Below are positions 1-19,035 of a stretch of 64,000 bases of DNA, one piece after another. Below the pieces are notes generated by a model. That model worked only from the letters and a program-made list of their open reading frames with translations. It did not search any database and was not told the origin of the DNA. Origin of the DNA: Pseudomonas sp. RSB 5.4. GTDB lineage: Bacteria; Pseudomonadota; Gammaproteobacteria; Pseudomonadales; Pseudomonadaceae. How positions within the stretch are numbered: the first letter of the stretch is position 1; every line of letters starts with the position of its first letter. The position numbers were made by a program, and so were the translations under genes. The DNA lies in the NCBI RefSeq assembly GCF_037126175.1, contig NZ_CP146986.1, positions 5,456,501 through 5,520,500 on the forward strand, given 5' to 3'.

Positions 1-512
1 TTCAGCTGGCCATTGCCAACCAACTGGCCAGCGAACAAAAAGCCAGTGAGGAGTTGCTAGATGAGCTAGAGCAACGCCTGCAAGGTGCTGAGGGTTACGA
101 AGCCCTCGACGCGGGGCAGAAACAGCAGCTCTTAGCCCCTTTCGCACAGTCTAAGCAGCAGCTGAAAGGGCAGAAGCTCATTGCGGTCATTCGTGACCAG
201 CGCAATCGTTTCGAGGACGAACAATACCCTCAGCTGTTGCTCAAGCTCGATCAGTTGGCGCGCCCGAAACCGGCCTCCTCGAAGCCGCCTGCGCAATATA
301 ACCGACCCGCGAGCGGTGACAAGCCAGGGGCTGACACGCCTGAACAGCCGAAGCTTGAAGTGGCGGAGCCTCGCATAGTGCAGTCCCGTCAAATAAAAGT
401 CGGGTACGCAAAGCCCTGGTTGACCAGTGAAGCCGAGCTGGATGATTACCTGCAGAAGCAACGCGAGGCTTGGCTGAGGGAAATCCACGCCGGCAACCGG
501 GTGCAGATTTGA
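1..512 (+). CDS. brxC: BREX ATPase BrxC, C-terminal end (5' truncated by window)
   Basis: The reading frame is open from base 3 and ends with TGA at 510-512, so only about the last 169 residues are present. BrxC is the large P-loop ATPase of type 1 BREX phage defence; the ATPase core lies upstream of the window. What is visible is a charged helical region, a proline-rich linker (roughly 240-350) and a closing block (KPWLTSEAELDDYLQ ... EIHAGNRVQI) that I recognise as the usual BrxC tail. It is followed 79 bases later by pglX, the normal brxC-pglX-pglZ-brxL order. The assignment depends on family memory of the tail plus context, as no catalytic motif is in view. Confidence 0.82.
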   Translation, partial: QLAIANQLASEQKASEELLDELEQRLQGAEGYEALDAGQKQQLLAPFAQSKQQLKGQKLIAVIRDQRNRFEDEQYPQLLLKLDQLARPKPASSKPPAQYNRPASGDKPGADTPEQPKLEVAEPRIVQSRQIKVGYAKPWLTSEAELDDYLQKQREAWLREIHAGNRVQI

Positions 513-591
513 CACTGAATAAATACAACTGGCCTGCCCGATGCGAGGCTAAGTCTTTGGTCGTTCGGTTGAATGGCTGAGTGGGGGATTG

Positions 592-2400
592 ATGGATACC
601 AGCAAACTCAAGAAATTTGCCCAATATGCACGTCGCATCTTGCTTGATCAGGTGAGCGGCAAGTTGGATGTGGTACTGGCACCGCAAAGTGCTGCACGCC
701 GTGAGCGAGCCCAGGTAGTGGCTGAGCTGGAAAAAGTGATTAGCAGCTCCGGTCGCGAGCATGTGGAAGAGCGGGTTGCCTACATCTGGTTCAACCGCTT
801 CTGTGCCTTGCGCTTCATGGACGTAAACCGCTACACCCGCATTGGCGTGGTGTCACCGGCTGAGGGCCAGTTCCAGCCCGAGATCCTGGCTGAAGCCAAG
901 ATGGGGCATATTGACGAAGAGATGGTACCGAGCCAGGTTCGTCAGAAGATCCTGGATCTTCTAGCGGGGCGCGCACCTAGCAACGACGCTCAGGGCGAAG
1001 CCTACCGTCTGCTGCTTGTTGCAGCGTGCAACGCTTGGTACCAGGCAATGCCCTTTCTGTTCGAACGCATTGATGACTACACCGAGCTGCTGATGCCCGA
1101 CGACTTACTTTCGGGCAATTCCATCCTGGCCTACACGCGCGAGGCCATGACGCCGGACGCTTGCGAAGACGTGGAAGTCATCGGCTGGCTGTACCAGTTC
1201 TACATCTCCGAGAAGAAGGACGCCGTCTTCGAGGGGTTGAAGAAGAACCAGAAGATCACCCCGGAGAACATCCCCGCCGCCACTCAGCTGTTCACCCCGC
1301 ACTGGATCGTGCGTTACCTAGTGGACAACTCTCTGGGTCGTCTCTGGCTGCTCAACCGTCCTAACTCCCGGCTAGTTGAGCAGATGGACTACTACATCCC
1401 ACCGGAGAAGCCAGAGGGTGATTTCCTCAAGATCACCGGCCCCGAGGACATCAAGGTCTGCGACCCTGCGTGTGGCTCCGGCCACATGCTCACCTACGCC
1501 TTTGACCTGTTATATGCGATGTACGAAGAGGAGGGCTTTGATCCGGCTGAGATCCCCGAGAAGATTCTCACCCACAACCTATTTGGCGTCGAGCTGGATG
1601 AGCGTGCAGGAGAGCTAGCTGCCTTTTCGCTCACCATGAAAGCCCGCACCCGCCAGCGGCGCTTCTTCAATAAAGGCGTCAAGCCCAATATCTGCATGCT
1701 GGAGAAGGTGAGCTTCAGCCGCGAAGAGCTGGACGAGTACATTGGCTTTGTCGGGCGTGACTTATTCACCTACGGCCTGCGCGAAACGCTGGAACAGTTC
1801 AGCGAAGCCGACAACTTCGGTTCGTTGATTGTGCCCAAGGTTGCTAATGTGGCCGATGTGCTGGACACGCTGGAGAGCAAGGACATGAGCAATAACCTGT
1901 TCCTGGCCGAGACACATAAAAAAGTGCTGATCGTTCTGCGCATGGCTGACGCCTTGAGTCCGCGCTACGCGGTGGTCGTAGCCAACCCACCTTATATGGG
2001 GGGCAAGGGGATGAATCCGCGCTTGAGCACTTGGGCTAAAGAGAATTTCCCGAGCAGCAAATCTGACCTGTTTGCGATGTTCATCGAACGCAACCTAGAT
2101 CTGGCGGTGAAGGGCGGAGCTGTCGCCATGATCACCATGCAGAGCTGGATGTTCCTTTCCTCATTCGAGTCCCTGCGCAGTCGTATTCTGACTCAGCATA
2201 CCATCCTCTCCATGGCGCATTTGGGGACACGGGCCTTCGATAGCATCGGTGGTGAGGTTGTTTCGACTACGGCCTTTGTGCTGGAAAATGCTCACAAGCC
2301 CGATTACCGGGGCGCTTACATGCGCCTGGTGGATGGCAATTCGGAATCGGAAAAGATGGAAATGATGGCCAAGGCCATCGTTCAAGGTAGGGTCGCATGA
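592..2400 (+). CDS. pglX: BREX adenine methyltransferase PglX, N-terminal half (split gene)
   Basis: This is the catalytic half (602 aa) of PglX, the BREX N6-adenine methyltransferase that marks host DNA and is needed for phage restriction. The SAM-binding motif DPACGSGHML is near residue 291 and the catalytic NPPY motif (ANPPYMGG) near residue 464. I chose ATG 592 because a GGGGG stretch precedes it; a TTG codon lies directly upstream at 589. Full-length PglX is about 1,200 aa. This protein stops at residue 602, directly after a segment (LVDGNSESEKMEMMAKAI) that in whole PglX runs on into the block now starting the gene at 4370. The stop overlaps the next gene by 4 bases (ATGA), so the shortened protein appears to be translated in a coupled operon. 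Whether both halves assemble into an active enzyme is inference. Confidence 0.88.
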   Translation: MDTSKLKKFAQYARRILLDQVSGKLDVVLAPQSAARRERAQVVAELEKVISSSGREHVEERVAYIWFNRFCALRFMDVNRYTRIGVVSPAEGQFQPEILAEAKMGHIDEEMVPSQVRQKILDLLAGRAPSNDAQGEAYRLLLVAACNAWYQAMPFLFERIDDYTELLMPDDLLSGNSILAYTREAMTPDACEDVEVIGWLYQFYISEKKDAVFEGLKKNQKITPENIPAATQLFTPHWIVRYLVDNSLGRLWLLNRPNSRLVEQMDYYIPPEKPEGDFLKITGPEDIKVCDPACGSGHMLTYAFDLLYAMYEEEGFDPAEIPEKILTHNLFGVELDERAGELAAFSLTMKARTRQRRFFNKGVKPNICMLEKVSFSREELDEYIGFVGRDLFTYGLRETLEQFSEADNFGSLIVPKVANVADVLDTLESKDMSNNLFLAETHKKVLIVLRMADALSPRYAVVVANPPYMGGKGMNPRLSTWAKENFPSSKSDLFAMFIERNLDLAVKGGAVAMITMQSWMFLSSFESLRSRILTQHTILSMAHLGTRAFDSIGGEVVSTTAFVLENAHKPDYRGAYMRLVDGNSESEKMEMMAKAIVQGRVA

Positions 2401-3536
2401 TCGCCAATCTGCAGCTCAAGAACTTCACTGCCTTCACCGATCTGACCATTGACTTCTCGCCAGGCATCAACATCGTGCTTGGTGAGAACGGCACCGGCAA
2501 GACCCAGTTGCTCAAGGCCGTACTGGCGCTGAGCGCTCTAGAAGCCCGAGGAGAGCAGGCCGATGAGCAACTGGCCCGCAAGCTGTGTCGGCTCTACCAC
2601 CCGCTCAGAGGGCAAGTGGGCGAGCTGCGTCGTGCTGGCACCCGAGGGAAGTCTGTACTCAAAAGCACCTTCGCAATGGAGCAAGTGATTACAGCCAAGT
2701 TCTATGGCAAGGACACCGTAGCCAATGTCACTGCTCCTATCGGGGGGGCGCCGGCCCCCGCCATCTTCATCCCGACCAAGGAGGTGCTGTCGCTGGTGCG
2801 TGGCCTGACGGCCGAGCAGCCCGACCTGCCCACCATCGAGCGCATCTTCGACGATGGCTACCTGGACCTGGCACGCCAGCTGGTTAGGGAAGGCGCCAAT
2901 GACCTGAACGTCAAGGTTCAGCTTGACCCGAAGTTCGCCAACATCGTGCCCCGCCTGGCCAACCTGATCGGTGGTCAGTACCTGCTGGAAAACGGCCGCT
3001 TCGTGTTCGAGCCGGGCCGCTACGAAGAGAAGGACGCCGCCACGCGCAGCAAAGCGCAGCACGCGCAGATGTACCAGGACAGCACCGAGTGGAAGTTCGT
3101 GCCCGGCAGCAAACACCGCCTTTCCAGTGGCATGACGGCCGAGGGCTTCCGTAAGATCGGCGTTCTGCAGCGCCTGCTCAGCAACGGCAGTCTCAACCCC
3201 GGCACCTCCGGCCCACTGCTGTGGGATGAGCCCGAATCCAACCTTAACCCCAAGCTGATGAAGGATCTGGTGCTGGCCCTGCTGGAGCTGGCCCGCAACG
3301 GCCAGCAAATCATCCTCGCCACGCACGACTACGTGCTGCTCAAGTGGTTCGACCTGCTGATGGACAAGGGCAAAGGGGATCACGTGATCTTCCATCGTCT
3401 GTATCGCGAAGCTGGTAGTGACGACATTCTGCGAGAAAGCCAAGCGGACTACAGCATTGTCGGTCGCAGCGCTATCAGCAACACCTTCGCTGAGCTTTAC
3501 GACGAAGACGTCAAGCGCGCATTGGGAGGCGAGTGA
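2397..3536 (+). CDS. RecF/OLD-like AAA ATPase nested between the pglX halves
   Basis: A 379-aa single-domain ATPase of the ABC/SMC-like (AAA_21/AAA_15) kind. The N-terminus has the typical start (IANLQLKNFTAFTDLTIDF) and Walker A GENGTGKT at residues 29-36. Near the C-terminus are a Walker B region (LLWDEPESNLNP, about residue 275) with the catalytic glutamate, and an H-loop (LATHDY, about 305). No nuclease (Toprim) domain is visible, unlike full OLD proteins. It starts within the end of pglX-N (ATGA overlap) and its stop overlaps the start of the next gene by one base, so the genes look translationally coupled. ATPases of this type often pair with a nuclease or other effector in defence systems (PARIS, Septu, Gabija); the particular system here is not one I recognise. 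Confidence 0.8.
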   Translation: MIANLQLKNFTAFTDLTIDFSPGINIVLGENGTGKTQLLKAVLALSALEARGEQADEQLARKLCRLYHPLRGQVGELRRAGTRGKSVLKSTFAMEQVITAKFYGKDTVANVTAPIGGAPAPAIFIPTKEVLSLVRGLTAEQPDLPTIERIFDDGYLDLARQLVREGANDLNVKVQLDPKFANIVPRLANLIGGQYLLENGRFVFEPGRYEEKDAATRSKAQHAQMYQDSTEWKFVPGSKHRLSSGMTAEGFRKIGVLQRLLSNGSLNPGTSGPLLWDEPESNLNPKLMKDLVLALLELARNGQQIILATHDYVLLKWFDLLMDKGKGDHVIFHRLYREAGSDDILRESQADYSIVGRSAISNTFAELYDEDVKRALGGE

Positions 3537-4093
3537 TGCCGGCATACCGCGCTGAAGAAACCGCTGAGCTGCTGTTCGATTTCCCTGATGGATTGAGCTG
3601 GAGTGAGCTGGACAAACAAGGTGTCAAGCTGCCTGTGCGAATGAAGTTCGTCGACCTAGTGATCGAGCGCGATAAGGACATTCTCCTAGTCGAGATCAAA
3701 GATCCATCGCACTCGCGAAGCCAGGACAAGGACCGCAATGCATATCTGAAGCGGTTGGCTGACAACTCAGTCCTGTCACAGGAGCTAACACCCAAGGCAC
3801 GTGACTCCTACCTCTATCTTCACTTGATGGAGCGCGACAGCAAGCCCTTCAAATATGTGGTGCTGCTCGGCCTGGATGCATTTGACCCAGATCTCCAGAA
3901 GGCACTCATGTTCGGTTTTAAGGACCGTCTGCTGTCAGATATCCGGGAGGAATCCTTCGAGGCCTGGAAACGTCAGCACATTGCAGACTGTATGGTGCTC
4001 TCGGTTGACTCATGGAATCATCAGTTTCCTGAGTGGCCATTGCGTCGTGAAGCGCCCATGGCTCGGCTCGTTCCGGAGGCGGCTATTCAGTGA
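3536..4093 (+). CDS. Small protein with PD-(D/E)XK-like signature, partner of the nested ATPase
   Basis: 185 aa, starting at ATG 3536 (a GTG directly upstream is possible); GGGAGG about 8 bases upstream supports ATG. Residues 37-56 read KFVDLVIERDKDILLVEIKD, giving Asp40, Glu53 and Lys55. This is the D-x12-ExK spacing of PD-(D/E)XK nucleases, with the acidic strand and ExK strand both hydrophobic as expected. No other catalytic motif is seen and the family is unknown to me. The gene is tightly coupled to the ATPase before it (TGATG) and to the remnant after it (GTGA), so it most likely works with the ATPase, which would sense or gate while this protein cuts. That division of labour is inferred from similar two-gene defence modules, not shown. 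Confidence 0.6.
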   Translation: MPAYRAEETAELLFDFPDGLSWSELDKQGVKLPVRMKFVDLVIERDKDILLVEIKDPSHSRSQDKDRNAYLKRLADNSVLSQELTPKARDSYLYLHLMERDSKPFKYVVLLGLDAFDPDLQKALMFGFKDRLLSDIREESFEAWKRQHIADCMVLSVDSWNHQFPEWPLRREAPMARLVPEAAIQ

Positions 4094-4373
4094 TCATTCT
4101 GCAAGATCTCGGCTTAGCCTATCGCAAAGCCAAGGTAGACCTGTACTAATCGGCCCATGCCTCGCTGGACGCGATTGCGGACTATGCGAGCGTGATGTGC
4201 TGCGAGTTACGGGCGGTTTGACCCGTTATTGCGTAGTCGGCGAAATTGACGTGCACGCGCTGCGCCAGTTCCAGGGCAGCCATCGCTCACCGGCCAAACC
4301 GTTCAAACCGGTGCCGGATGGATTTGAAATTGACTTTGGCCGCAAGGTATTGCCGGCGGGAGAGAAAGAGTGA
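4090..4373 (+). pseudogene. Decayed third gene of the cassette (possible reverse-transcriptase-like N-terminus, separate C-terminal scrap)
   Basis: From GTG 4090 (overlapping the upstream stop as GTGA) the frame reads MIILQDLGLAYRKAKVDLY, then a TAA at 4147-4149. Reading through, it continues SAHASLDAIADYASVM to a TGA near 4220, so a Tyr codon probably became a stop. The block resembles, from memory, the start of a family of bacterial reverse-transcriptase-like proteins; I hold this loosely. In another frame about 50 residues (TRYCVVGEIDVHALRQFQG ... FGRKVLPAGEKE) run to a TGA at 4371-4373, which overlaps the GTG of pglX-C. The simplest reading is one gene with a large internal deletion plus a nonsense change, leaving both ends in different frames. 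No intact domain remains. Confidence 0.5.
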
Positions 4374-6115
4374 GTGAGAGCCATAACAACAGTCACGAGC
4401 AGGGCATGGAGAAGTATTTTTTTCGGGCTTCTGCTGCAGACTTCAAGAAAATTCCAGGGGGGCCAGTCGCCTACTGGCTTAGCGACTTCGTATTGAAGGC
4501 ATTCAACGAAGGCGAACCACTGCGCGCGTATTCAAAGGGCTCGACGGGCCTTCAGACTAGTGATAGTGCCACCTTCGTTCGATACGTTCATGAACCTTCC
4601 GCTTCATCTATCGGGGAGAAGTGGTTCCGTTTCGCCAAAGGTGGAGGATTCAGAAAATGGTTCGGCAACGTTGAGCATCTTGTCAACTGGGAGGATGATG
4701 GTCGTGAAATCAAGACTTACGTTGCAGACAAGTATCCATACCTAAAAGGCAATTACGCATTAGTAGTTAAAAATGAAAGTACATATTTTCAGGCAGGGCT
4801 GCTTACATCTCGCGTCACGTCTGGCAATCTTTCTTTCAGAGTGAAGGAAGTCGCCGAAATCTATGCAGATGCATGCACGGCAATATTCCCTAGCGATCCT
4901 GAATTTTTTCTATGTCTTCTTTCAACCAAGTTGCTTGGTATAATTCAAAGCTTGAATCCGACATTGAACTTCCAGGCAGGTGATATTGAAAAGTTTCCAA
5001 TTCTTGAATCGGCTTTGGCGTTGGCAGATCGGTCAATAGCAAAGTCGTGCATCGCAATTTCCCGAACAGATTGGGACTCATCAGAAAGTTCTTGGGACTT
5101 CACCAGTCTCCCACTGTTACAACCCGACTATCGCCAGCCAACGCTCAAGGGCACCTATCAGAAACTGCGCACTTACTGGCGAGAGATGGTGCTGGAAATG
5201 CAGCGCCTGGAGGAAGAAAACAACCGTATCTTCATTGACGCTTACGGCCTGCAAGACGAGCTGAAGCCCGAAGTTCGGTTAAACGAGATCACGCTCACTT
5301 GCAACCCCCATTACCGCTACGCTGGCAACAAGACCGAAGAAGAGCTGGAAGCCCTGTTGCTGGCTGACACCATGCGCGAGCTGGTGAGCTACGCCGTGGG
5401 CTGCATGTTCGGCCGCTACAGCTTGGAGAGGGCGGGACTGGTTCTGGCCAATCAGGGCGAGACGCTGGCTGACTATCTAGCCCAGGTGCCACAGCCTAGC
5501 TTCCCTGCCGATGACGACAATGTGATCCCGCTGCTCGACGGTGACTGGTTCCCGGACGACGTTACCCTGCGTTTCCGCCAGTTTCTGCGCGTGGCGTTTG
5601 GTGATGTGCATTATGAGGACAACCTCGCCTTTATCGAACAAGCGCTTAATGCTAAGGGCAAGCGCAACTACAGCCTGCGCGATTACTTCCTCGGCGAGTT
5701 CTATGCTGATCATGTGAAACGCTACAAGAAGCGTCCTATCTACTGGCTGTTCAGCAGTCCGAAGGGCACCTTCAGCGCGCTGGTCTATCTGCATCGTTAC
5801 CGCCCGGACACCGTCAGCGTGGTGCTCAGCTACCTGCGTGATTTTCGCAAGAAGCTCGCTTCGCGTCTGGACTATTTGCAGCAGGTGGCCATCAGCAGCT
5901 CTGCCAGCCCGAGCGAAAAGACCAAGGCCATCAAGGAGGCTGAAGTCGTCAAGAAGCAGTTGCTGGAGCTGGACGACTACGAGCGCGACACGCTCTATCC
6001 GTTGGCTACCGAGCAGCGTGAGCTGGATCTGGACGATGGCGTCAAGGTCAACTACCTCAAATTGGGGGGGGCGCTGAAGAAGATCGTCGGGCTGGACGCC
6101 AAGGGCGAGGACTGA
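4370..6115 (+). CDS. pglX: BREX PglX, C-terminal half (target recognition side)
   Basis: 581 aa from GTG 4370; ATG 4406 (MEKYFFRASAADFK) is an alternative start. The block FRASAADFKKIPGGPVAYWL is the known continuation of PglX, and 602 + 581 residues add up to a normal full-length PglX. This half carries the presumed target recognition region (about residues 110-230) and the helical C-terminal region with the YWLFSSPKG motif near 465. There are no SAM-binding motifs, so alone it cannot methylate. The start overlaps the stop of the remnant before it. Bases about 4740-5070, inside the recognition region, are clearly richer in A+T than either flank, which suggests exchange of the specificity segment. 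Confidence 0.85.
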   Translation: MSESHNNSHEQGMEKYFFRASAADFKKIPGGPVAYWLSDFVLKAFNEGEPLRAYSKGSTGLQTSDSATFVRYVHEPSASSIGEKWFRFAKGGGFRKWFGNVEHLVNWEDDGREIKTYVADKYPYLKGNYALVVKNESTYFQAGLLTSRVTSGNLSFRVKEVAEIYADACTAIFPSDPEFFLCLLSTKLLGIIQSLNPTLNFQAGDIEKFPILESALALADRSIAKSCIAISRTDWDSSESSWDFTSLPLLQPDYRQPTLKGTYQKLRTYWREMVLEMQRLEEENNRIFIDAYGLQDELKPEVRLNEITLTCNPHYRYAGNKTEEELEALLLADTMRELVSYAVGCMFGRYSLERAGLVLANQGETLADYLAQVPQPSFPADDDNVIPLLDGDWFPDDVTLRFRQFLRVAFGDVHYEDNLAFIEQALNAKGKRNYSLRDYFLGEFYADHVKRYKKRPIYWLFSSPKGTFSALVYLHRYRPDTVSVVLSYLRDFRKKLASRLDYLQQVAISSSASPSEKTKAIKEAEVVKKQLLELDDYERDTLYPLATEQRELDLDDGVKVNYLKLGGALKKIVGLDAKGED

Positions 6116-6131
6116 GGTGCAGGAGAGAAAG

Positions 6132-6290
6132 ATGCTTATTCAATCGATACGGCTTACCAATTTCCTCAGCTTTGGCGAGTCTACCGCAGCGGTAGCGCTG
6201 GAGTCGCTGAACGTGATCATAGGGCCTAATGGTTCGCCGTGGGCGAGGCGTTTCGTTGAGACTTTACAGGCGAGGATGGCTCAACGATGA
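6132..6290 (+). pseudogene. Truncated AAA ATPase remnant between pglX and pglZ
   Basis: A 52-codon frame starting MLIQSIRLTNFLSFGE and reaching VIIGPNGS, the first half of a Walker A motif of an AAA15/RecF-like ATPase, which should continue GKSN. At that point (about 6236) the similarity stops and an unrelated-looking tail (RRFVETLQARMAQR) runs to a stop at 6288-6290, overlapping the pglZ start as ATGA. An AGGAGAG ribosome site precedes the ATG. ATPases with this start are common accessory genes between pglX and pglZ, often with a DUF4276 partner. I infer an internal deletion that removed nearly all of such an accessory module; the tail may be the end of the partner gene. It cannot bind ATP as it stands. 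Confidence 0.6.
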
Positions 6291-8800
6291 GCAACTCCAA
6301 GATCACCCAGGCGCTGACCAACCTGTTCGAGAAACAGCGGATTGTCTTCTGGTACGACAATCGCCTGGAGTTCCGTGCGGATTTCGAATCGCTAGAGCTG
6401 CCGGGTATAGAGAAAATCGAGCTGGCCAACAACGAGTTCGGTGTTAAGTACCGAGTCTTGCGCGAACACCCCTTGCAGAAGTTTCTGCTATACCGCGAGG
6501 GTGCCGAGCCCGCCTATCTGGATAACTGGTTGCTCGATGTGCAACTGGCCAGCGGCAATACTTTCCGCACGGACCAGCTTGCCTTGTGGCTGGCTGAGCT
6601 GGAGTTGGGGCCGGACTGCTATCCGGTGCTGGAGGAGCATGCAGCCTTCTTCACCGCGGCCAAGCGGCGTGAGCAGTTGCATAAGCTGCTGCAGCCAGGC
6701 GACTCGCAGAGCATGCTACGTTTCAAGATGCTTGCTGTCTGCGCTGGCGCAAAGGGTGAGCCGCGACTGGATGTGATTGTTGAGGAGCTGCTGGCTGAGC
6801 TCGCCAATGCTGAAAGTGCGTGCATCAAGCTCATCGAAACAAGCGGCCTGGGCAGCTTCCTCTGGGAGCAGATGAAGCGCGCCTACGGCTATGTGTCGGA
6901 CCAGCCGGGATTGCACGATTTCGTGATCGAGCTGTTCAAGGCCTGCTTCATGATGGGCACGGACCCTGAGTACAAGGCGCGCTTGTCAGCCGAGTCGCTG
7001 GTTTTTCTCAGACGCTGGAAAGACAGTCGTTCACATGAGAGCAGCTTCGAGCTGCTCTCTGCTCAGTGTGCAGAGGTACTACAGATTGGTGACAAGCTAC
7101 ATAAGCTTGATTACCGGATACTCCTGGAGCTCGACTACTTCGAGCTGATCGACCGCAAGATCCTCAGTGAACTGGTTCGCGCGACGGTAGCCCGAACTGC
7201 GACTGCTGCCGATGTGGAGCAGTCTGTTCGTCTGCGACGCCAGAGTCATTGGTTCCACCATTTCGAGGATGTCTATCTGGCGCTGGACCATGCCGCGCAG
7301 TTTCTGCAGACACTGGATGCAGCAAAGCTGGAAATGACCTCCTTGTCAGATGGCGTGGAGAAATATGCGAAGAGCTGGTATCGGCTGGATCAGCTGTACC
7401 GAAAGTTCGTCCATCACGCGCGCAAGTCTGGCCAGGCCTCCTTGCTGGAGGAGCTCAGCGCTCAGATCGAAAACCAGTACACCAACAACTATCTGGCTCG
7501 TCTCAATGGTCGTTGGCAGCAGTTTGTGGACTCTGCTCCGAGCTGGACGGCTGCTCCGATCATGCTGCAGCGGAATTTCTTCAGTCGCTGCGTAAAGCCC
7601 TTCCTTGAGCGAAAGACTAAGGTCTGCGTGCTGATCTCGGATGCCTTCCGTTATGAAGTAGGTGAAGAGCTGCAGAGCCTGATTCGCCGTGAAGACCGCT
7701 TTGAGGCCGAGCTGGAGCCGGCGCTTTCCATGTTGCCGAGTTACACGCAGTTGGGGATGGCTGCGCTGCTACCTAACCAGGCACTGCTGCTGGCTGAAAA
7801 CGACAGCGGCGATGCGATAGTGGATGGTCAGAGCGCTCAGGGCTCGACCAATCGCGGCAAGATTCTTGCTGCTGCGGTGCCTAGTTCTGCTGTTGTGTTG
7901 GCCAAAGACCTGCTGGCTATGAATCAGGCGGATTCACGGGCGCTGCTGCGGGATCACGATGTGGTTTACGTTTACCACAACCTGATCGACAAGACTGGCG
8001 ATACGCGAGATACCGAGGAGCGGGTGTTTGCCGCGGCAGAAGAGACATTGTCCGAGCTTGTCCGCCTGGTGAAGAAGCTGACCAACGCCAATGCCAGCAA
8101 CCTTTTGGTCACCGCAGACCATGGTTTCATCTACCAGCATCGACCGCTGGAAGAGAGCGACTTTCTCAGCAATGTGCCGGATGGTGATGAGGTGCTCTAT
8201 CGCGACCGGCGTTTCGTCATTGGGCGTGGTCTGCGTAGTCAAGCAGGTTTCCGGACATTCACCCCTGAACAGTTGGGGCTGGAAGGATCGCTGGATGTAC
8301 AGATCCCTAAGTCGATCAACCGCTTGCGTCTCAAAGGTTCTGGCAGCCGGTTCGTGCATGGTGGTGCCACGTTGCAAGAGGTGGTGATCCCGGTTGTGCG
8401 CATCAACAAAAAGCGCCAGAGCGATGTTGGAAGTGTGGAAGTCGAGTTTATCGGAGGCGGGAGCAGAAGCATCACGACTGGCCAATTGGCTGTTGTGCTG
8501 TATCAGTCCGAAGCGGTCACCGAGAAGAAACAAGCTCGCCGGTTGCGTGCTGGGCTGTACACCTTGGACAGTGAGTTAATCTCCGACTCGCATGAACTGA
8601 CGTTCGATTTCGCGTCCGAAAATCCGCGTGAGCGAGAGCTATCGGTGCGCTTCATCCTGAGCCGTAAAGCTGATGCAGCAAACAACCAGCAGGTTGAGCT
8701 GCGACTCGAAGAGCAGATTGAAGGCACCTCACATGTCACCCAGTACAAGGCCGCTCGGTATACGATTCGTCGTTCATTCACCAGTGAATTCGATTTTTAG
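6287..8800 (+). CDS. pglZ: BREX alkaline-phosphatase-superfamily protein PglZ (type A)
   Basis: 837 aa, a normal PglZ length. PglZ is a core BREX protein with an alkaline-phosphatase fold; its nuclease or phosphatase role in defence is still debated. The N-terminus (KITQALTNLFEKQRIVFWYD) is typical. Metal-site motifs of the fold are visible: LISDAFRYEVGEEL around residue 448 and VTADHGFIYQH around residue 607. The start overlaps the stop of the remnant upstream (ATGA), and brxL follows after 12 bases. The frame is intact, so the core of the BREX system downstream of pglX is preserved. Confidence 0.93.
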   Translation: MSNSKITQALTNLFEKQRIVFWYDNRLEFRADFESLELPGIEKIELANNEFGVKYRVLREHPLQKFLLYREGAEPAYLDNWLLDVQLASGNTFRTDQLALWLAELELGPDCYPVLEEHAAFFTAAKRREQLHKLLQPGDSQSMLRFKMLAVCAGAKGEPRLDVIVEELLAELANAESACIKLIETSGLGSFLWEQMKRAYGYVSDQPGLHDFVIELFKACFMMGTDPEYKARLSAESLVFLRRWKDSRSHESSFELLSAQCAEVLQIGDKLHKLDYRILLELDYFELIDRKILSELVRATVARTATAADVEQSVRLRRQSHWFHHFEDVYLALDHAAQFLQTLDAAKLEMTSLSDGVEKYAKSWYRLDQLYRKFVHHARKSGQASLLEELSAQIENQYTNNYLARLNGRWQQFVDSAPSWTAAPIMLQRNFFSRCVKPFLERKTKVCVLISDAFRYEVGEELQSLIRREDRFEAELEPALSMLPSYTQLGMAALLPNQALLLAENDSGDAIVDGQSAQGSTNRGKILAAAVPSSAVVLAKDLLAMNQADSRALLRDHDVVYVYHNLIDKTGDTRDTEERVFAAAEETLSELVRLVKKLTNANASNLLVTADHGFIYQHRPLEESDFLSNVPDGDEVLYRDRRFVIGRGLRSQAGFRTFTPEQLGLEGSLDVQIPKSINRLRLKGSGSRFVHGGATLQEVVIPVVRINKKRQSDVGSVEVEFIGGGSRSITTGQLAVVLYQSEAVTEKKQARRLRAGLYTLDSELISDSHELTFDFASENPRERELSVRFILSRKADAANNQQVELRLEEQIEGTSHVTQYKAARYTIRRSFTSEFDF

Positions 8801-8812
8801 GCGGGAGCCCTC

Positions 8813-10906
8813 ATGAGTCAGCTTGATGAGAAGATCAACCAGCATTTTACAGGCTTAGTCGTTCGGAAGGATCTGGTCAAAGCTGTTAAGGGCAACGCCA
8901 TCGTGCCGTCCTACGTGCTGGAGTACCTGCTGGGCCAGTACTGCGCAACGAATGATGAGTCGACGATTCAAACCGGCATCGAGACGGTTAAGGAAATTCT
9001 GCGCAAGCACTATGTGCATCGCAACGAAGCGGGGTTGGTGCGTTCGACCATCAAGGAGAAAGGGCGCCACAAGGTCATCGACCGGGTCAGCGTTTCTCTC
9101 AACGACAAAGACGATGTGTACGAGGCTGAGTTCGCTAACCTCGGGATAAAAAAGGTGCTGATCGACTCCAGCACGGTGAAGGCACATCAGAAGCTGTTGG
9201 TCGGAGGGGTGTGGTGCATCGCTGATCTGGAGTATGACTACACCGAGGATAAATCGGCTTCTCCCTGGGTGCTGGCCTCGCTCAAGCCTATCCAGATCTC
9301 CCGTTTTGATTTCGATGGTTATCTGGAGTCCCGCAAGCAGTTCACCACGGATGAGTGGATTGATCTACTTATTCAGAGCATTGGCTTCAATCCGCAGATG
9401 TTCGGCAAGCGCAACAAGCTCTTGCAACTGATCCGTCTGATTCCATTCTGCGAGCGAAACTACAACCTGATTGAGCTAGGGCCGAAGGGCACCGGTAAGT
9501 CGCACGTTTATTCCGAGTTCTCCCCGCACGGCATCCTGATCTCCGGTGGCGAGGTGACGGTTCCCAAGCTGTTCGTCCACAACGGCACAGGCAAGCTCGG
9601 CCTGGTGGGCTACTGGGATGTAGTGGCTTTCGACGAATTTGCCGGCAAGCAGAAGCGGGTGGACAAGGCGTTGGTCGACATCATGAAGAACTACATGGCC
9701 AACAAGTCGTTTTCTCGGGGAGTGGAAACCCTTGGGGCCGAGGCCAGCATGGTGTTTGTGGGCAACACCGATCACACAGTGCCGTACATGCTCAAGCACA
9801 GCGACCTGTTCGACCCGCTGCCGGAGAAGTTCCACGACTCGGCCTTCCTCGACCGTCTGCACAGTTACATTCCGGGCTGGGAGGTGGACGTGATCCGTGG
9901 GGAGATGTTCTCCGGCGGCTACGGCTTTGTGGTCGATTATCTGGCCGAGATCCTTCGCTCACTGCGTAGTCATGACTTCTCGGATCGTTACAAGGGGCTG
10001 TTCACCTTGTCGGATGAAATCTCCACACGTGATCGTGACGGTATCAACAAGACCTTCTCGGGGTTAATGAAGATCCTCTTTCCTCATGGTGAGGCAACTG
10101 AGTCCGAGGTCGAAGATGTGCTGCGCTGCGCTATAGAGGGACGCAAGCGGGTCAAAGATCAGTTGCTGCGTATCGACACAACCTACCCAACTGTGCGTTT
10201 TACCTATAAGGGAGCGGATGGTGTAGAGAGGTTGGTCTACAACTTAGAGGAGAGCGAGTACCCAAACCAGTACCACCGACGAGTGGCGAGCGAAGTTTCG
10301 GAATTAGATCTATTCGATGTTGCTAACGCCGCTTCCACGGGGGATACCGATGCGGTATGTCCTCAGCCTGTTCATGCTGCTGTCTTGGTGAGGAACGAGT
10401 CTGAGCTGAAACCTCAGCACCTGGTAGTCCAGGAGAACCAGCGCGGCGTCACCTTCGATCAGCTGTTTGGGCCCTACTTAAAAGGGGTCAAGCGGGTCAT
10501 CGTTGTAGATCCATACCTCCGGATGTTCCACCAATTGCGTAACCTTATGGAACTGATGGAGACGATCAGTAAGCAGCTTGCCTCCGGTGAGGAGGTGGCT
10601 GTGCACGTGGTTACCGTTGAGGATGAGTTTAACGGTGATCGCCAGACCGAAAGTCTGCAGAAAATCGCGGGAGCTTGTGCTGGGGTGGGTATTCAATTCA
10701 CTTGGGTGTATGACACGACAGGGACCAAGCACGATCGCGACATCACCACTGATAGGGGCTGGAAAATCGTTCTCGGGCGGGGGTTGGACATCTTCCAGCG
10801 ATTCGAGCTGAACGACGCGTTTAGCTTTGCGAATCGCCTACAGCAACATCGTCAATGCAAGGAGTTCAGCGCAACGTTCATTCGGGTCGAGGATGCTGGG
10901 CAGTGA
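8813..10906 (+). CDS. brxL: BREX Lon-like AAA+ protein BrxL with C-terminal MIT_C-like domain
   Basis: 697 aa. BrxL is an AAA+ ring ATPase with a Lon-like C-terminal fold that binds DNA and is needed for phage exclusion. The N-terminal domain (DEKINQHFTGLVVRKDLVK) is typical; Walker A is GPKGTGKS near residue 222 and Walker B VAFDEFAG near 272. After a linker rich in small residues (about 495-530) comes a domain with FDQLFGPYLKGVKRVIVVDPY and HDRDITTDRGWKIVLGRGLD, which I recognise as the MIT_C (MITD1 C-terminal, phospholipase-D-like fold) region seen in a subset of BrxL. The gene follows pglZ by 12 bases with a GGCGGGAG ribosome site and is the last gene of the operon. Confidence 0.92.
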   Translation: MSQLDEKINQHFTGLVVRKDLVKAVKGNAIVPSYVLEYLLGQYCATNDESTIQTGIETVKEILRKHYVHRNEAGLVRSTIKEKGRHKVIDRVSVSLNDKDDVYEAEFANLGIKKVLIDSSTVKAHQKLLVGGVWCIADLEYDYTEDKSASPWVLASLKPIQISRFDFDGYLESRKQFTTDEWIDLLIQSIGFNPQMFGKRNKLLQLIRLIPFCERNYNLIELGPKGTGKSHVYSEFSPHGILISGGEVTVPKLFVHNGTGKLGLVGYWDVVAFDEFAGKQKRVDKALVDIMKNYMANKSFSRGVETLGAEASMVFVGNTDHTVPYMLKHSDLFDPLPEKFHDSAFLDRLHSYIPGWEVDVIRGEMFSGGYGFVVDYLAEILRSLRSHDFSDRYKGLFTLSDEISTRDRDGINKTFSGLMKILFPHGEATESEVEDVLRCAIEGRKRVKDQLLRIDTTYPTVRFTYKGADGVERLVYNLEESEYPNQYHRRVASEVSELDLFDVANAASTGDTDAVCPQPVHAAVLVRNESELKPQHLVVQENQRGVTFDQLFGPYLKGVKRVIVVDPYLRMFHQLRNLMELMETISKQLASGEEVAVHVVTVEDEFNGDRQTESLQKIAGACAGVGIQFTWVYDTTGTKHDRDITTDRGWKIVLGRGLDIFQRFELNDAFSFANRLQQHRQCKEFSATFIRVEDAGQ

Positions 10907-11078
10907 TACGCTGGAGGAGGTGTTTCCGGCCCAAGATCTTCAGCGCTTTTTACAAGCTCTTGGTGCTTTTAGCTAGCGCCTAATCTAAGTGATATTCGAG
11001 GAGCCAGGGAGTCCGGCTCCAATTCCGGAGCGGCCCTATATTCATTGGTTCTTCCCGTACTCCCACTTATGGTCAAAA

Positions 11079-13545
11079 TTAGGCTGGTTTGAGATTCATC
11101 TTGGCCTCAAATATCAACAAATCGCTTTCCTGGTTATTGATCATCATGTTGACAAGGCGAGGGCTCACGTCGATTTCGCCGCCGAGCGTCGCACGCACGG
11201 TTTCGGGGTACCGTTCCAACACCAGATCCGCCAGGCCATGGCTGTAGCCGTCGCGGATGAGCTTGATCTTGGTGTCATCCGCAGTGCCGTATTTGATAAG
11301 CTTGTAGAACCCAGCATCCAGGGCACCGACGCCATTTAGCACTTCGACGAACTTGAAGATCTTGTTGTCAAAGAAGTCGTCCTCATCCTTCAGGCGGACG
11401 ATCGCCAAGTTGATCCGCTCGCCGTCATCCTTTTGGGAGATCCTCACCCAATTCTCGTACTTGCTGTCACGGTACTTGGTATCCCCCCATTTACCCACGA
11501 ACACGTGATCGCTATGGCTAGTCTCAACTAGCTTTTTCCAGTAGGCAAGCGTCTGTCGGATCGTCTGCTTGACGCTGAGTTTCTTAAGCTTCCAATCCAG
11601 AATCATGGCGTAGAAGTTCCGGGCAGGCTCTTGCTTGAGGCGCACGAGGTCGCTGTACTCTCGGCTGTCATCGAAGTGATCAACGAACGATTTGGAGATG
11701 GCAAGCATCAGCCTGTCCACGGTATTAATCACACCGTTCGCCTCGATGCCACGCTTGATCTTCCGTTCAATTGCCTCCTCCTCAGAGAACACGTCAATTT
11801 CAGTGACACTGTTCGCGATGAGGAGCTTGCCTACCTGAGTGGTGACGTACCGATATTCCCGACCTTGAACCACGCCAGGATGCAAATTCTCAAGGCGAGC
11901 CACTGCGTCATCGTAGAGCTCCGAGACCTTCCCATCAATGATCTTGGTAGCTTCAAGCAGAACGTTGCTGACGGTGTCCGTGACGACTTTAGAGACGTTG
12001 ACCGATTTATCGTAGAAAGTCTCAAGCGCTGCGTTGTCGCGCGTGTAGCCATTTACCCCCAAGAGGTAAATGCTAGACTCCAGCTTTCTCAGCGCAGCCT
12101 CAGCGCCAGGCGCGAACACCTCGCTGAACCGGTTGACGCGCCCGACTAAGTTCTTGAATTGAGAGGGCGTCAGCTTTTTTCTTCCCTTTGAAAAAATCAA
12201 AGACGAAGAGTCGTTCGATCGGCAGGTTCACCCCTTCCAAAAGCGTAGAGTTGCAGACCAGAAACCTCATCTGCTTGGAGCTGCTGAATAGATTTTCCAG
12301 GTACAGCCGGATGGTGTCAGGGATCGAACCATGGTGGTACATGACCCCTTTGCGCAGGCAGCCGATCAGTTTGTAGCGCCAGTCAAAAAGCTCTGTGAGC
12401 TCGTCACAGGCAGTTTGAATCAATGGGCAGTCCACAGGCGGCAGAACCGCTGCCAGCTCGACCGCGAACGACTCAATGCTTTTCTTCTTATTGCCGTAAA
12501 CGATGTTTTTGGACAGCGCTTCGTGTTTGATGAGCTCGAAGCAGTTGGTATACCTCCGATCGAACTCCATCCAGTCATTCAGGAAATGGTCATAAAGCTT
12601 GAGCTTCGTCTGGCCCTTCCCTGTTCTGAAGTCCTTGACGTAAAAGCGCTCCGACTTGATGTACTCATCGATCTTGAACCCGGTCGGGATCATGTCCAGG
12701 AAGCGCACACGGACGTTGAGCTCATCGCAGAGGAAGGGGGTCAGGAATTTGAATGACGTCTCCGGGTTACGAGCCCCCAAGATGCATAGCATGGCCGCCA
12801 GTAGCTCACTTCTGCGGTCGCTCTGCAGCAGGTTGTGGGCCTCATCGACGAAGACCATATCGAAGCTCAGCCCGGCGTTCTCATTCAAGAGCCTGTTGAG
12901 CCGCTCTTGGGTCAGGACAAATGCCCTGTTATTCCGCTCCACCGAATACATCTCGGGGTGGGTCACCACCTTGCCCAACCCCTCGATGTCCGCGTAGATC
13001 AACCGCTTCTTCGTCTGGGCCAGCAGGGCTTTTGAGGGTACGAGGATCAGCACCCGCAGCCCCGGATTTTCCCTCACAGATTGGATGATGAGCTCTGATT
13101 TGCCGTAGCTGGTCGGAGCAACCACGACTGACGACTTACGGTACTCCGACTGCACAAATGTTCGCAGGGCGTCCTGTTGCTCAGTCAGCACGATGCCCTG
13201 ATCACGGAAGGTATCGACATAGCTGCCCACGATGTTTCGGATGAACGACTCGCTGCGGTGATCGTCCTTGGAAAAGTAGCTGCTGATCACTGCTGAGACA
13301 GGGTGTAGGCCGCTGTTCAGTGCTACATCGTACAGCGCCTGGTACTGGCCCGAAGCGTTCCCGTAAAACAGGATAATGCGATAGCCAAGACGCTGAATTT
13401 CGGGCGTCCTATGGTTCAGGAGCAGCACGGCGATAGCCAGAAGCTTCACGGTCTGCGTGTTACCCAGTTCGTCTCCTTTGAGGAGTTGGAAATACAGATC
13501 CTTGAACTTGGTGTTGCCCAGCTTCCTGATGGTCAGCTCTTCCAT
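11079..13545 (-). pseudogene. hamB: HamB-like DEAH helicase (Hachiman), frameshifted
   Basis: Two overlapping frames make one superfamily 2 helicase of about 821 aa. The first (13545 down to 12100) holds Walker A APTSYGKS and the DEAH box VFVDEAHNLL and reaches FVFDFFKGKKK. The second (12200 down to 11079) continues LTPSQFKNLVGRVNRFSE, which is helicase motif VI, and the C-terminal domain. The frames meet in a run of six A (plus strand T run 12175-12180); five A would restore KGKKKLTPSQF. As read, translation ends at 12100 without the motif VI arginine. There is no good ribosome site before the internal ATG 12200. It follows the hamA-like gene by one base. Mutation, reversible slippage and sequencing error are all possible. 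Confidence 0.8.
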
Positions 13546-13546
13546 G

Positions 13547-14347
13547 CTACTGCTCCGCCTCCTGCCTCAAGAACTCTTCCAGCTTTTCCATGGTGCCTTT
13601 GTGGAGGGATAGCACCCACACCGTTTTGAACACTGCCTCAGCCACCAGCTTGGTGGTGAATTTTGAAACGGTATTTTCGGCGATGGCCTGGGACACATCG
13701 CTGAACAAGGCAGAGATCAGAAACACATTGTTGTCCGAAGCAGTCGCCTCATCTTCTTCGGCTAAATCGCCTTCCAGCTCCAAGATCTCAATGACGGAGT
13801 CCCGGTAATTGGCTTTGTTGTGGATGGCGTTTTTCGCGGCATTGATCGCATTGAGCCAATGGTTGAGCTCCGGCTCAGCCAAGCGCTTCTTGAGATCATC
13901 CCGAGCTAGGCGCAACAGTGCACTGGTGGCCGAGCAAGAAGTCTTGTCGGCCCCTCGACCTCCCGATTTGACCTCGGTGATCCAAACGTTGTTGGTTGAG
14001 GTCTCGTACAGAAGGAGATCGAAGCCCTTCCGGATGCTCTTTTCTTCCATGTTGAAGAACGGCGAGACGACGTCGAAGTCGGGGAAAAGCTTCAGGATGA
14101 TGACGTGCGACAGAAGCTCGCCGAGCATGCCGATCCGGGTTTCCCAGGGCTTCTTGGAGTAGCGCTCGTTCCAGAAATGCCTGATCGTCGCAGGGTACTT
14201 GTAGATTGCCCTGTCCTTGCTGGCCTGATCGGTGCCGTGGCAGATCCGCGTGAGGTTCTCCCTCAGCGCGAACTTGAGCTCATCAGAAAAGTCTTCAACA
14301 CAACACAGAGCATACTGGTCTACCTGCTTGAAGCTCACGCCATCCAT
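13547..14347 (-). CDS. hamA: HamA-like nuclease effector (DUF1837), Hachiman system
   Basis: 266 aa from ATG 14347, chosen because GGGAAG stands a few bases upstream; a GTG at 14365 is the longer option but lacks a ribosome site. The conserved core GMLGELLSHVIILKLF ... PFFNMEE, then KGFDLLLYE and WITEVKSG, gives the Asp and Glu-x-Lys of a PD-(D/E)XK nuclease as in DUF1837. HamA with the HamB helicase forms Hachiman, in which DNA damage sensing by HamB releases HamA to degrade DNA and abort infection. Both genes lie on the opposite strand to BREX and converge on brxL. With hamB frameshifted, how this nuclease is held in check, or whether it is active, is unclear. Confidence 0.78.
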   Translation of the reverse strand: MDGVSFKQVDQYALCCVEDFSDELKFALRENLTRICHGTDQASKDRAIYKYPATIRHFWNERYSKKPWETRIGMLGELLSHVIILKLFPDFDVVSPFFNMEEKSIRKGFDLLLYETSTNNVWITEVKSGGRGADKTSCSATSALLRLARDDLKKRLAEPELNHWLNAINAAKNAIHNKANYRDSVIEILELEGDLAEEDEATASDNNVFLISALFSDVSQAIAENTVSKFTTKLVAEAVFKTVWVLSLHKGTMEKLEEFLRQEAEQ

Positions 14348-14584
14348 AACACTTCCCACAAGCACGAAACCGCAGAGTCCTCATGCGGTTGCTGCGCACG
14401 ATCAATGATCCCGCCCTGATTAAGGGTAGGCACCTGATGGGCATCGGTACGCGCATGCGAATGCTATTCTAGCATCCCCAATAGCGGCACTGTGCCTGCA
14501 TCCTTTCAAATTAGCGTGATCAATCGGTGGTGGTAAAGAAAACTGCAAAAAATATTGATGAAGATAGTCGGAGATTACGTTTTG

Positions 14585-18645: not shown

Positions 18646-19035
18646 TGGTGGAGCCGGGGGGATTTGAACCCCCGTCCGCCAGTGCTCCGCTGTCGGTACT
18701 ACATGCGTAGCCGTGTCTATTAAGTTAACCCTCAGCGACCCGACGGGCAGGGTGCTTTGGGCGAGTTGTGTAAGTTTTAGCCGCTTCGTCCACAACGTAC
18801 TGCACGGCGATTCTGTTCTATATGACAATCATTTCGGGTTTACAGACATCCCCTGATGATTGCTGGGCCCGAAGGCACCAGGAGTGCATGTCAGCTGCAA
18901 TTAAGCAGCGAGAGCAGCACCGTATTGGTCGTCATTGGCAACTATAAGAAGTTGCAACAGTGGATTTACGACTTCTGTTACCAAGTCGGCATGCACCTAA
19001 AGTTTCGTCACCGGCGTCGAATCCTAATCGGCCCC
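18646..19035 (-). ncRNA. ssrA: tmRNA (transfer-messenger RNA)
   Basis: About 390 bases. The 5' end GGGGCCGATTAGGATTCGAC and the 3' T arm and acceptor ending GGCTCCACCA (CCA encoded, complement of 18646-18655) are unmistakable. The tag frame, complement of 18901-18939, reads ANDDQYGAALAA then TAA, the fluorescens-type tag that differs from P. aeruginosa by Gln for Asn at position 5. tmRNA with SmpB (gene at 28310) rescues stalled ribosomes and tags the unfinished proteins for proteolysis. The 3' end is the likely attachment site of the island to its left. Confidence 0.97.

Follow-up and report, generated by a model that had tools for sequence, protein, structure and literature searches.

A PglX split at its hinge, with exchangeable defence genes between the halves, in a BREX type I operon of Pseudomonas sp. 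RSB 5.4

The window analyzed here, a stretch of 64,000 nucleotides from Pseudomonas sp. RSB 5.4 (contig NZ_CP146986.1, positions 5,456,501 to 5,520,500), contains the second part of a bacteriophage exclusion (BREX) type I operon in which the methyltransferase gene pglX is divided into two frames lying 1,969 bp apart (Table 1). On sequence comparison, the upstream frame (pglX-N) and the downstream frame (pglX-C) are the halves of one PglX, the cut recurs at the same hinge in relatives, both halves are under purifying selection, and the genes between them are exchanged, with tails of former cargo retained ahead of pglX-C. We consider it likely that the two chains form one PglX with separate methyltransferase (M) and specificity (S) chains, resembling type I HsdM and HsdS, and that the hinge is a recurrent slot for cargo.

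Each PglX half has a single match in the host genome, a single contig of 6.24 Mb. Against NF033452, the NCBIfam model for BREX-1 PglX (1210 positions, curated cut-off 500 bits), pglX-N matched positions 1–646 with 757 bits and pglX-C positions 644–1209 with 614 bits, each half scoring above the cut-off. pglX-N also matched Pfam Eco57I/N6_Mtase and the half-length PADLOC model PDLC02525 (916 bits), whereas pglX-C gave no Pfam match and its NCBIfam matches were BREX PglX models only. The proteins did not fall into the HsdM or HsdS profiles, the best models for pglX-N being those of PglX. The contiguous coverage and the one genome match per half bear out an earlier, sequence-only reading of this DNA, which had taken the frames as the N and C halves of one BREX PglX of about 1,183 residues (602 + 581); the frames, coordinates and junction letters were likewise as it described. 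An origin of the halves from two different, paralogous PglX genes is rejected on the same two observations. The genes brxA, brxB and brxC are whole upstream of pglX-N and 92–95% identical over their full length to the copies in locus L015 (tblastn), and with pglX, pglZ and brxL they form one operon of the BREX type I set. PglX is not a single polypeptide in this locus, being encoded by two frames.

In solved PglX structures, the break maps to the hinge that joins the methyltransferase domain to the target-recognition domain. PMC11341690 assigns residues 662–849 of PglX to the target-recognition domain (TRD) and likens the C-terminal domain to type I specificity subunits. The predicted fold of pglX-C alone resembles the PglX C-terminal domain, and its TRD part resembles type I specificity subunits. 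The folding alignments held 19 (A1) and 24 (A2) sequences, hand-picked from the 120 listed per search and from the loci described below.

To place the split among its relatives, we gathered loci with pglX-C as the query; the sample is therefore biased, the query being half of a split gene. It combined 41 loci from genome contigs with four overlapping genome samples: 398 genomes of the same genus (13 matched, the host's own included), 398 of the same family (21), 390 of the same order (29) and 398 of the same phylum (11). After deduplication 100 loci remained, comprising 65 in which one frame runs from the N to the C match, 23 interrupted ones, and 12 without an N half in reach; many of these 12 lie at contig ends, and they were not used to judge the loss of a half. 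The flanks of many intact loci were about 1.5 kb, and at such loci a break within ~100 residues of the start would escape notice. The hinge was the site of the cut in 18 of the 23 interrupted loci, the window included, and thus in 18 of 100 distinct PglX loci. Among type I loci with an interrupted N-to-C frame, 18/20 were cut at the hinge and 2/20 elsewhere, stops in the C part having been scanned unsystematically. Within the genus, five of the 12 other matching genomes are hinge-split (G134, G378, G292, G288 and G261), and the hinge-split loci as a whole span Pseudomonadota, Chlorobiota (L029) and Thermodesulfobacteriota (L047). The break is thus shared by 17 relatives, some with the same HEC-02 genes as the window and others with other cargo, and the idea that it might be confined to this assembly is refuted. 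An assembly or single-strain artefact was also rejected, given the same split in many loci and in half-length database proteins.

In a quickly computed maximum-likelihood tree built from 82 N halves, at least seven changes between split and intact states were required, compared with 16.6 for shuffled labels, and all seven minimum changes are forced by branches with ≥95% support in the Shimodaira–Hasegawa-like approximate likelihood ratio test (SH-aLRT). L049 and L058 were grouped with the intact loci; the tree omits L116, L117, L125, L103, L034, L010 and the 12 loci lacking an N half. This count does not settle how many fissions were independent, because some changes could be reversals or transfers of the split cassette. 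L116, L117 and L125, which belong to a remote PglX lineage and stand outside the 18, may represent a further split lineage. Their N (~630–640 residues) and C (~640–670 residues) frames seem separate and have no defence cargo between them; the frames overlap by four bases in L125, and in L117 a reverse-strand gene lies between them. L117 and L125 were checked by profile, and the N match of L116 holds a stop.

Outside these genomes, one viral contig carried a pglX-C relative, an N match stopping ~70 bp before it (reading frame unchecked), and 260 plasmid records matched pglX-C at E ≤ 1e-50, all below 60% identity, with 13 matching pglX-N at E ≤ 1e-150. The DNA of window positions 2200–4600 had no match among 50,697 phage records and five short matches only among plasmids.

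Stand-alone halves were also abundant in a homologue search limited by length so that whole PglX stayed out. At least 7,831 C halves (E ≤ 1e-20) and at least 6,956 N halves (E ≤ 1e-100) were found, contig-end fragments among them, with named hosts including Pseudomonas aeruginosa, Stutzerimonas, Aromatoleum, Azoarcus and Laribacter. Among the best 120 N halves, the window's own included, 112 have exactly 602 residues. Among the best 120 C halves, at least 99 start with methionine and have the hinge motif no farther in than residue 40, its position being identical in 93; the remainder include fragments (e.g., P0037 and P0114) and variant-motif proteins. Such conserved ends are not expected of decaying fragments. 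In the ten loci of the window's clade, the mean amino-acid identity was 0.85 for the N half, 0.37 for residues 31–215 of the C half (the TRD) and 0.82 for residues 301–581. The median ratio of nonsynonymous to synonymous substitution (dN/dS) was 0.08 for the N half and 0.10 for the C tail, each from 44 of 45 pairs, while the TRD was saturated in 39 of 45. Judged by these ratios, both halves are under purifying selection.

These data bear directly on the rival view that cargo insertion killed pglX, leaving decaying halves in an operon that is otherwise a relic or is kept for other reasons. Decay does occur in the operon, as the hollowed genes at 4090–4373 and 6132–6290 attest, and PglX is damaged in other loci as well: pglX is broken away from the hinge in L049 and L058, the C matches of L025, L028 and L033, scored as intact, each hold one in-frame stop, and a TGA stop is flagged in the otherwise uninterrupted PglX matches of L080 and L083 (G950 and G906). 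However, selection on both halves, the uniform length of the N halves, the conserved leader of the C halves, the retained catalytic motifs and the concentration of interruptions at one site make this view improbable.

The halves also vary together. The identity of the N half correlated with that of the C tail at r = 0.96 in the split loci (153 pairs) and at 0.91 in 62 intact loci (1,891 pairs), indicating that the halves travel together as they do in whole PglX. The identity of the TRD was uncorrelated with that of the N half (r = 0.00 in split and −0.09 in intact loci), implying that this domain is exchanged in both forms. Functional separation, in which pglX-C or pglX-N acts alone, for instance as a decoy or regulator, would accord with the prediction, at moderate confidence, that the C half folds by itself. 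The co-variation, as strong as in intact PglX, and the retention of catalytic motifs and domains speak against it, and all 18 hinge-split loci hold both halves, though by definition; we regard it as slightly less probable than decay. L018 and L019 match the window at 87% identity up to residue 576 of the N half, but their final ~60 residues differ in type from those of the other clade members, an indication of recombination within the methyltransferase part.

Between the halves, the ATPase and the small nuclease-like gene recognized in the sequence-only reading match HEC-02A and HEC-02B of PADLOC. They adjoin each other and agree with the HEC-02 (Hma-embedded candidate) module, but they lie inside a split pglX. 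HEC-02B has invariant D40, E53 and K55 in an alignment of 19 sequences, a PD-(D/E)XK-like pattern, and its fold match was weak. The gene described earlier as decayed proved to be the first ~95 bp and the last ~186 bp of a ~3.0 kb reverse transcriptase (RT)-nitrilase gene that is whole in relatives, where it matches PADLOC PDLC03780 at >1,000 bits. In the window ~2.74 kb of it is gone between 4184 and 4188/4191, leaving the gene ends and no complete RT or nitrilase domain. The gap separating pglX-C from pglZ has likewise been hollowed, with the start of HEC-01A joined to an apparent end of HEC-01B; by these remnants, the window probably keeps one of originally three passenger modules.

The cargo differs among the hinge-split loci (Table 1), and related genes occur in intact systems, with HEC-02 between brxC and pglX in L026 and L041. 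RT matches at E ≤ 1e-40 were found in nine of the 390 order-level genomes; four were full length at E = 0, three of them inside a split pglX and one directly behind an intact pglX. In L114, two cargo genes are separated by a 67-residue frame that repeats an N-half end, which suggests that cargo came by recombination in the end of the N half. In L020, a gene for a 189-residue protein (6356–6925) stands beside the ATPase without a Pfam or PADLOC match, and may be an undescribed partner. The second slot, between pglX-C and pglZ, is filled in L015–L019, L021 and L027; its contents include a GmrSD-like HEC-05 (profiled in L015 only), HEC-01A/B with HEC-06 (L021) and PtuA/PtuB (L027). The notion of the RT cargo as a group II intron or comparable element whose splicing restores whole PglX draws on the whole RT within the split pglX of eight hinge-split loci and the broken one in L115, but it is very improbable, given that the RT is UG5-nitrilase, a PADLOC defence RT class, that six RT-bearing loci (at the gathering threshold) and window positions 1–12000 (E up to 1) gave no Rfam match, that the halves have their own stops and starts, that the same split occurs with non-RT cargo, and that an RT relative (49% identical) lies between intact pglX and pglZ in L127.

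What stands ahead of the C half is in most loci the end of one of two cargo genes, and some loci keep such an end where the rest has gone. An RT-gene end precedes the C half in the window, L016, L018–L021, L114, L115, L122 and L123, and a HerA end does so in L017, L022 and L056; HerA-like tails of 67–207 bases (70–87% identity) precede it in L015, L121 and L023, none of which showed a HerA frame. In the window, a ribosome-binding-like sequence, GGGAG, stands just upstream of pglX-C within the 3' remnant of the RT gene. We infer that the tail is retained for this sequence: the 3' end of the last cargo gene would bear the ribosome-binding sequence of pglX-C and would thereby outlive the rest of the cargo. 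At the other end, the start of HEC-02A overlaps the pglX-N stop (ATGA), and in 14 of 18 loci a frame of at least 55 residues begins four bases inside the stop of pglX-N, that of L016 being only a 55-residue HEC-02A remnant. In 12 of 18 loci, the start of pglX-C falls within the stop codon of an intact frame before it (the start in L124 is one of several). No terminator or promoter was found between the halves on the + strand (2400–4370), but the scans were equal to or below those of shuffled sequence (terminator-like 6 vs 5.8, promoter-like 1 vs 2.8) and so say little.

We propose that pglX is naturally split in this lineage and that pglX-N, as the methyltransferase chain, and pglX-C, as the specificity chain, would combine as HsdM and HsdS do to make one PglX, preserving methylation and defence. 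Because the cut falls at a flexible hinge, each chain could fold alone and the gap could house other genes; lying between co-inherited and probably co-transcribed halves, it would act as a recurrent slot for anti-phage cassettes, which are gained, replaced and hollowed. Of the alternatives raised by the sequence-only reading, a split PglX carrying an extra defence module fits best, in view of the shared break, the other cargo, the selection, the 602-residue length and the co-variation. More tentatively, fission at the hinge may have occurred several times, giving a two-subunit BREX with an exchangeable specificity chain and a payload bay, whose RT, nuclease, SIR2-HerA or PARIS-like genes would be co-translated, their dose tied to assembly, and would act when BREX is blocked, as PrrC does for type I systems.

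Several points weigh against the two-chain interpretation. The N half stops in ATGA or GTGA in 17 of 18 loci, but about half of TGA stops would do so by chance (an estimate), and six of 18 loci, the window included, lack a whole cargo frame overlapping the start of the C half. The window's pglX-C GTG at 4370 overlaps only the stop of the remnant, ~280 nt past the last whole cargo gene, and for this reason translational coupling has probably been lost there; of the coupled starts proposed earlier, the letters stand, and intact coupling at pglX-C is not supported. As far as sequence comparison goes, the TRD is swapped equally freely in intact PglX, so splitting is not needed for specificity exchange. 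The model of pglX-C is of moderate confidence only (predicted local distance difference test (pLDDT) 73, predicted template-modelling score (pTM) 0.48, residues 1–36 below 50), and it differs from PglX by a root-mean-square deviation of 8–9.

The window shares sequence, domain order, catalytic motifs and the operon brxA-brxB-brxC-pglX-pglZ-brxL with BREX type I PglX/BrxX, which is encoded by one gene; here there are two, cut at the hinge with other genes between. Like type I HsdM and HsdS it has separate methyltransferase and putative specificity chains, and HsdS chains are similar to the C half over its recognition domain, but the families are PglX and not HsdM/HsdS. The ends of PADLOC models PDLC02525 (607 positions) and PDLC02516 (593 positions) coincide with the window's halves; both are labelled simply PglX, a word absent from the text of the 2021 PADLOC paper. 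Embedded defence genes and interrupted pglX are already known. The relevant sections of PMC12839542, PMC12629846 and PMC12707154 report defence genes within other defence systems and BREX-linked ATPase-nuclease modules. Those of PMC12629846 and PMC12707154 describe how prrC and other accessory genes reside within type I loci and become active on inhibition of the host system. The OLD-ABC and nuclease modules treated as auxiliary or backup nuclease effectors of BREX loci in PMC12839542 are like those of the window; the words "split" and "fission" are absent from its main text, and its BrxX section describes one chain. In the literature searched, which lay outside Goldfarb 2015 and the Payne 2024 preprint on embedding, we came upon no account of a hinge split that recurs with exchangeable cargo.

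If the chains assemble, BREX has an M+S architecture of its own, contrary to the statement in PMC12707154, in its treatment of the BREX TRD, that this domain is an integral part of the methyltransferase protein. The specificity chain would then be swappable as a separate gene, making BREX retargeting directly testable. In Pseudomonas aeruginosa records both halves of a split pglX carry the name PglX; such genes would be working systems, which surveys may wrongly score as defective, and the gap between the halves would be a place to seek new defence genes.

Table 1. Features of the window's BREX operon, and cargo found between the PglX halves of other hinge-split loci
Feature	Positions or loci	Strand	Basis or remark
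brxC 3' end	3..512	+	Remainder of the gene precedes the window, as do brxA and brxB
pglX-N: N-terminal and methyltransferase domains, DPACGSG and NPPY motifs	592..2400	+	NF033452, Pfam, PADLOC
HEC-02A, AAA/ABC-type ATPase	2397..3536	+	PADLOC PDLC04213, 332 bits; Pfam AAA_21/AAA_15
HEC-02B, small nuclease-like protein	3536 (or 3533)..4093	+	PADLOC PDLC04220, 243 bits
5' remnant of RT-UG5-nitrilase gene	4090..4184	+	3993-4184 vs L019 6887-7078, 89%
3' remnant of the same RT-UG5-nitrilase gene	4188..4373	+	4188-4416 vs L016 9819-10047, 90%
pglX-C: TRD, helical spacer, C-terminal domain; own leader of ~16 residues, GTG start	4370..6115	+	
Approximate TRD, hypervariable	4478..5002	+	8c45 alignment to TRD 662-849
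Second hollowed cassette, HEC-01A start joined to apparent HEC-01B end, overlapping pglZ start	6132..6290	+	Translation compared by eye with L021 HEC-01A/B
pglZ (BREX-1, type A)	6287..8800	+	TIGR02687, 911 bits
brxL	8813..10906	+	TIGR02688, 656 bits
HEC-02	L015, L018, L019, L022, L023, L056		
Whole RT-UG5-nitrilase	L016, L018, L019, L020, L114, L121, L122, L123		Broken in L115
Shedu (SduA)	L016		
SIR2 + HerA	L022		HerA-like gene in L056 (likeness to L022, not profiled)
AriA/AriB-like (PARIS-like) genes	L124		
PDC-S02	L047		
Part of PDC-S22 gene	L029		
ATPase + further gene	L020		
No clear gene	L057		

Adjoining brxL on the − strand (11079–14365) are Hachiman-like genes, in which a HamB-like helicase occupies two overlapping frames (481 and 373 residues), as if frameshifted, beside a weak HamA-like gene. 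A transfer-messenger RNA (tmRNA) gene, ssrA, lies near these defence genes at 18646–19035. Since tmRNA genes are common integration sites, the defence island may be mobile.

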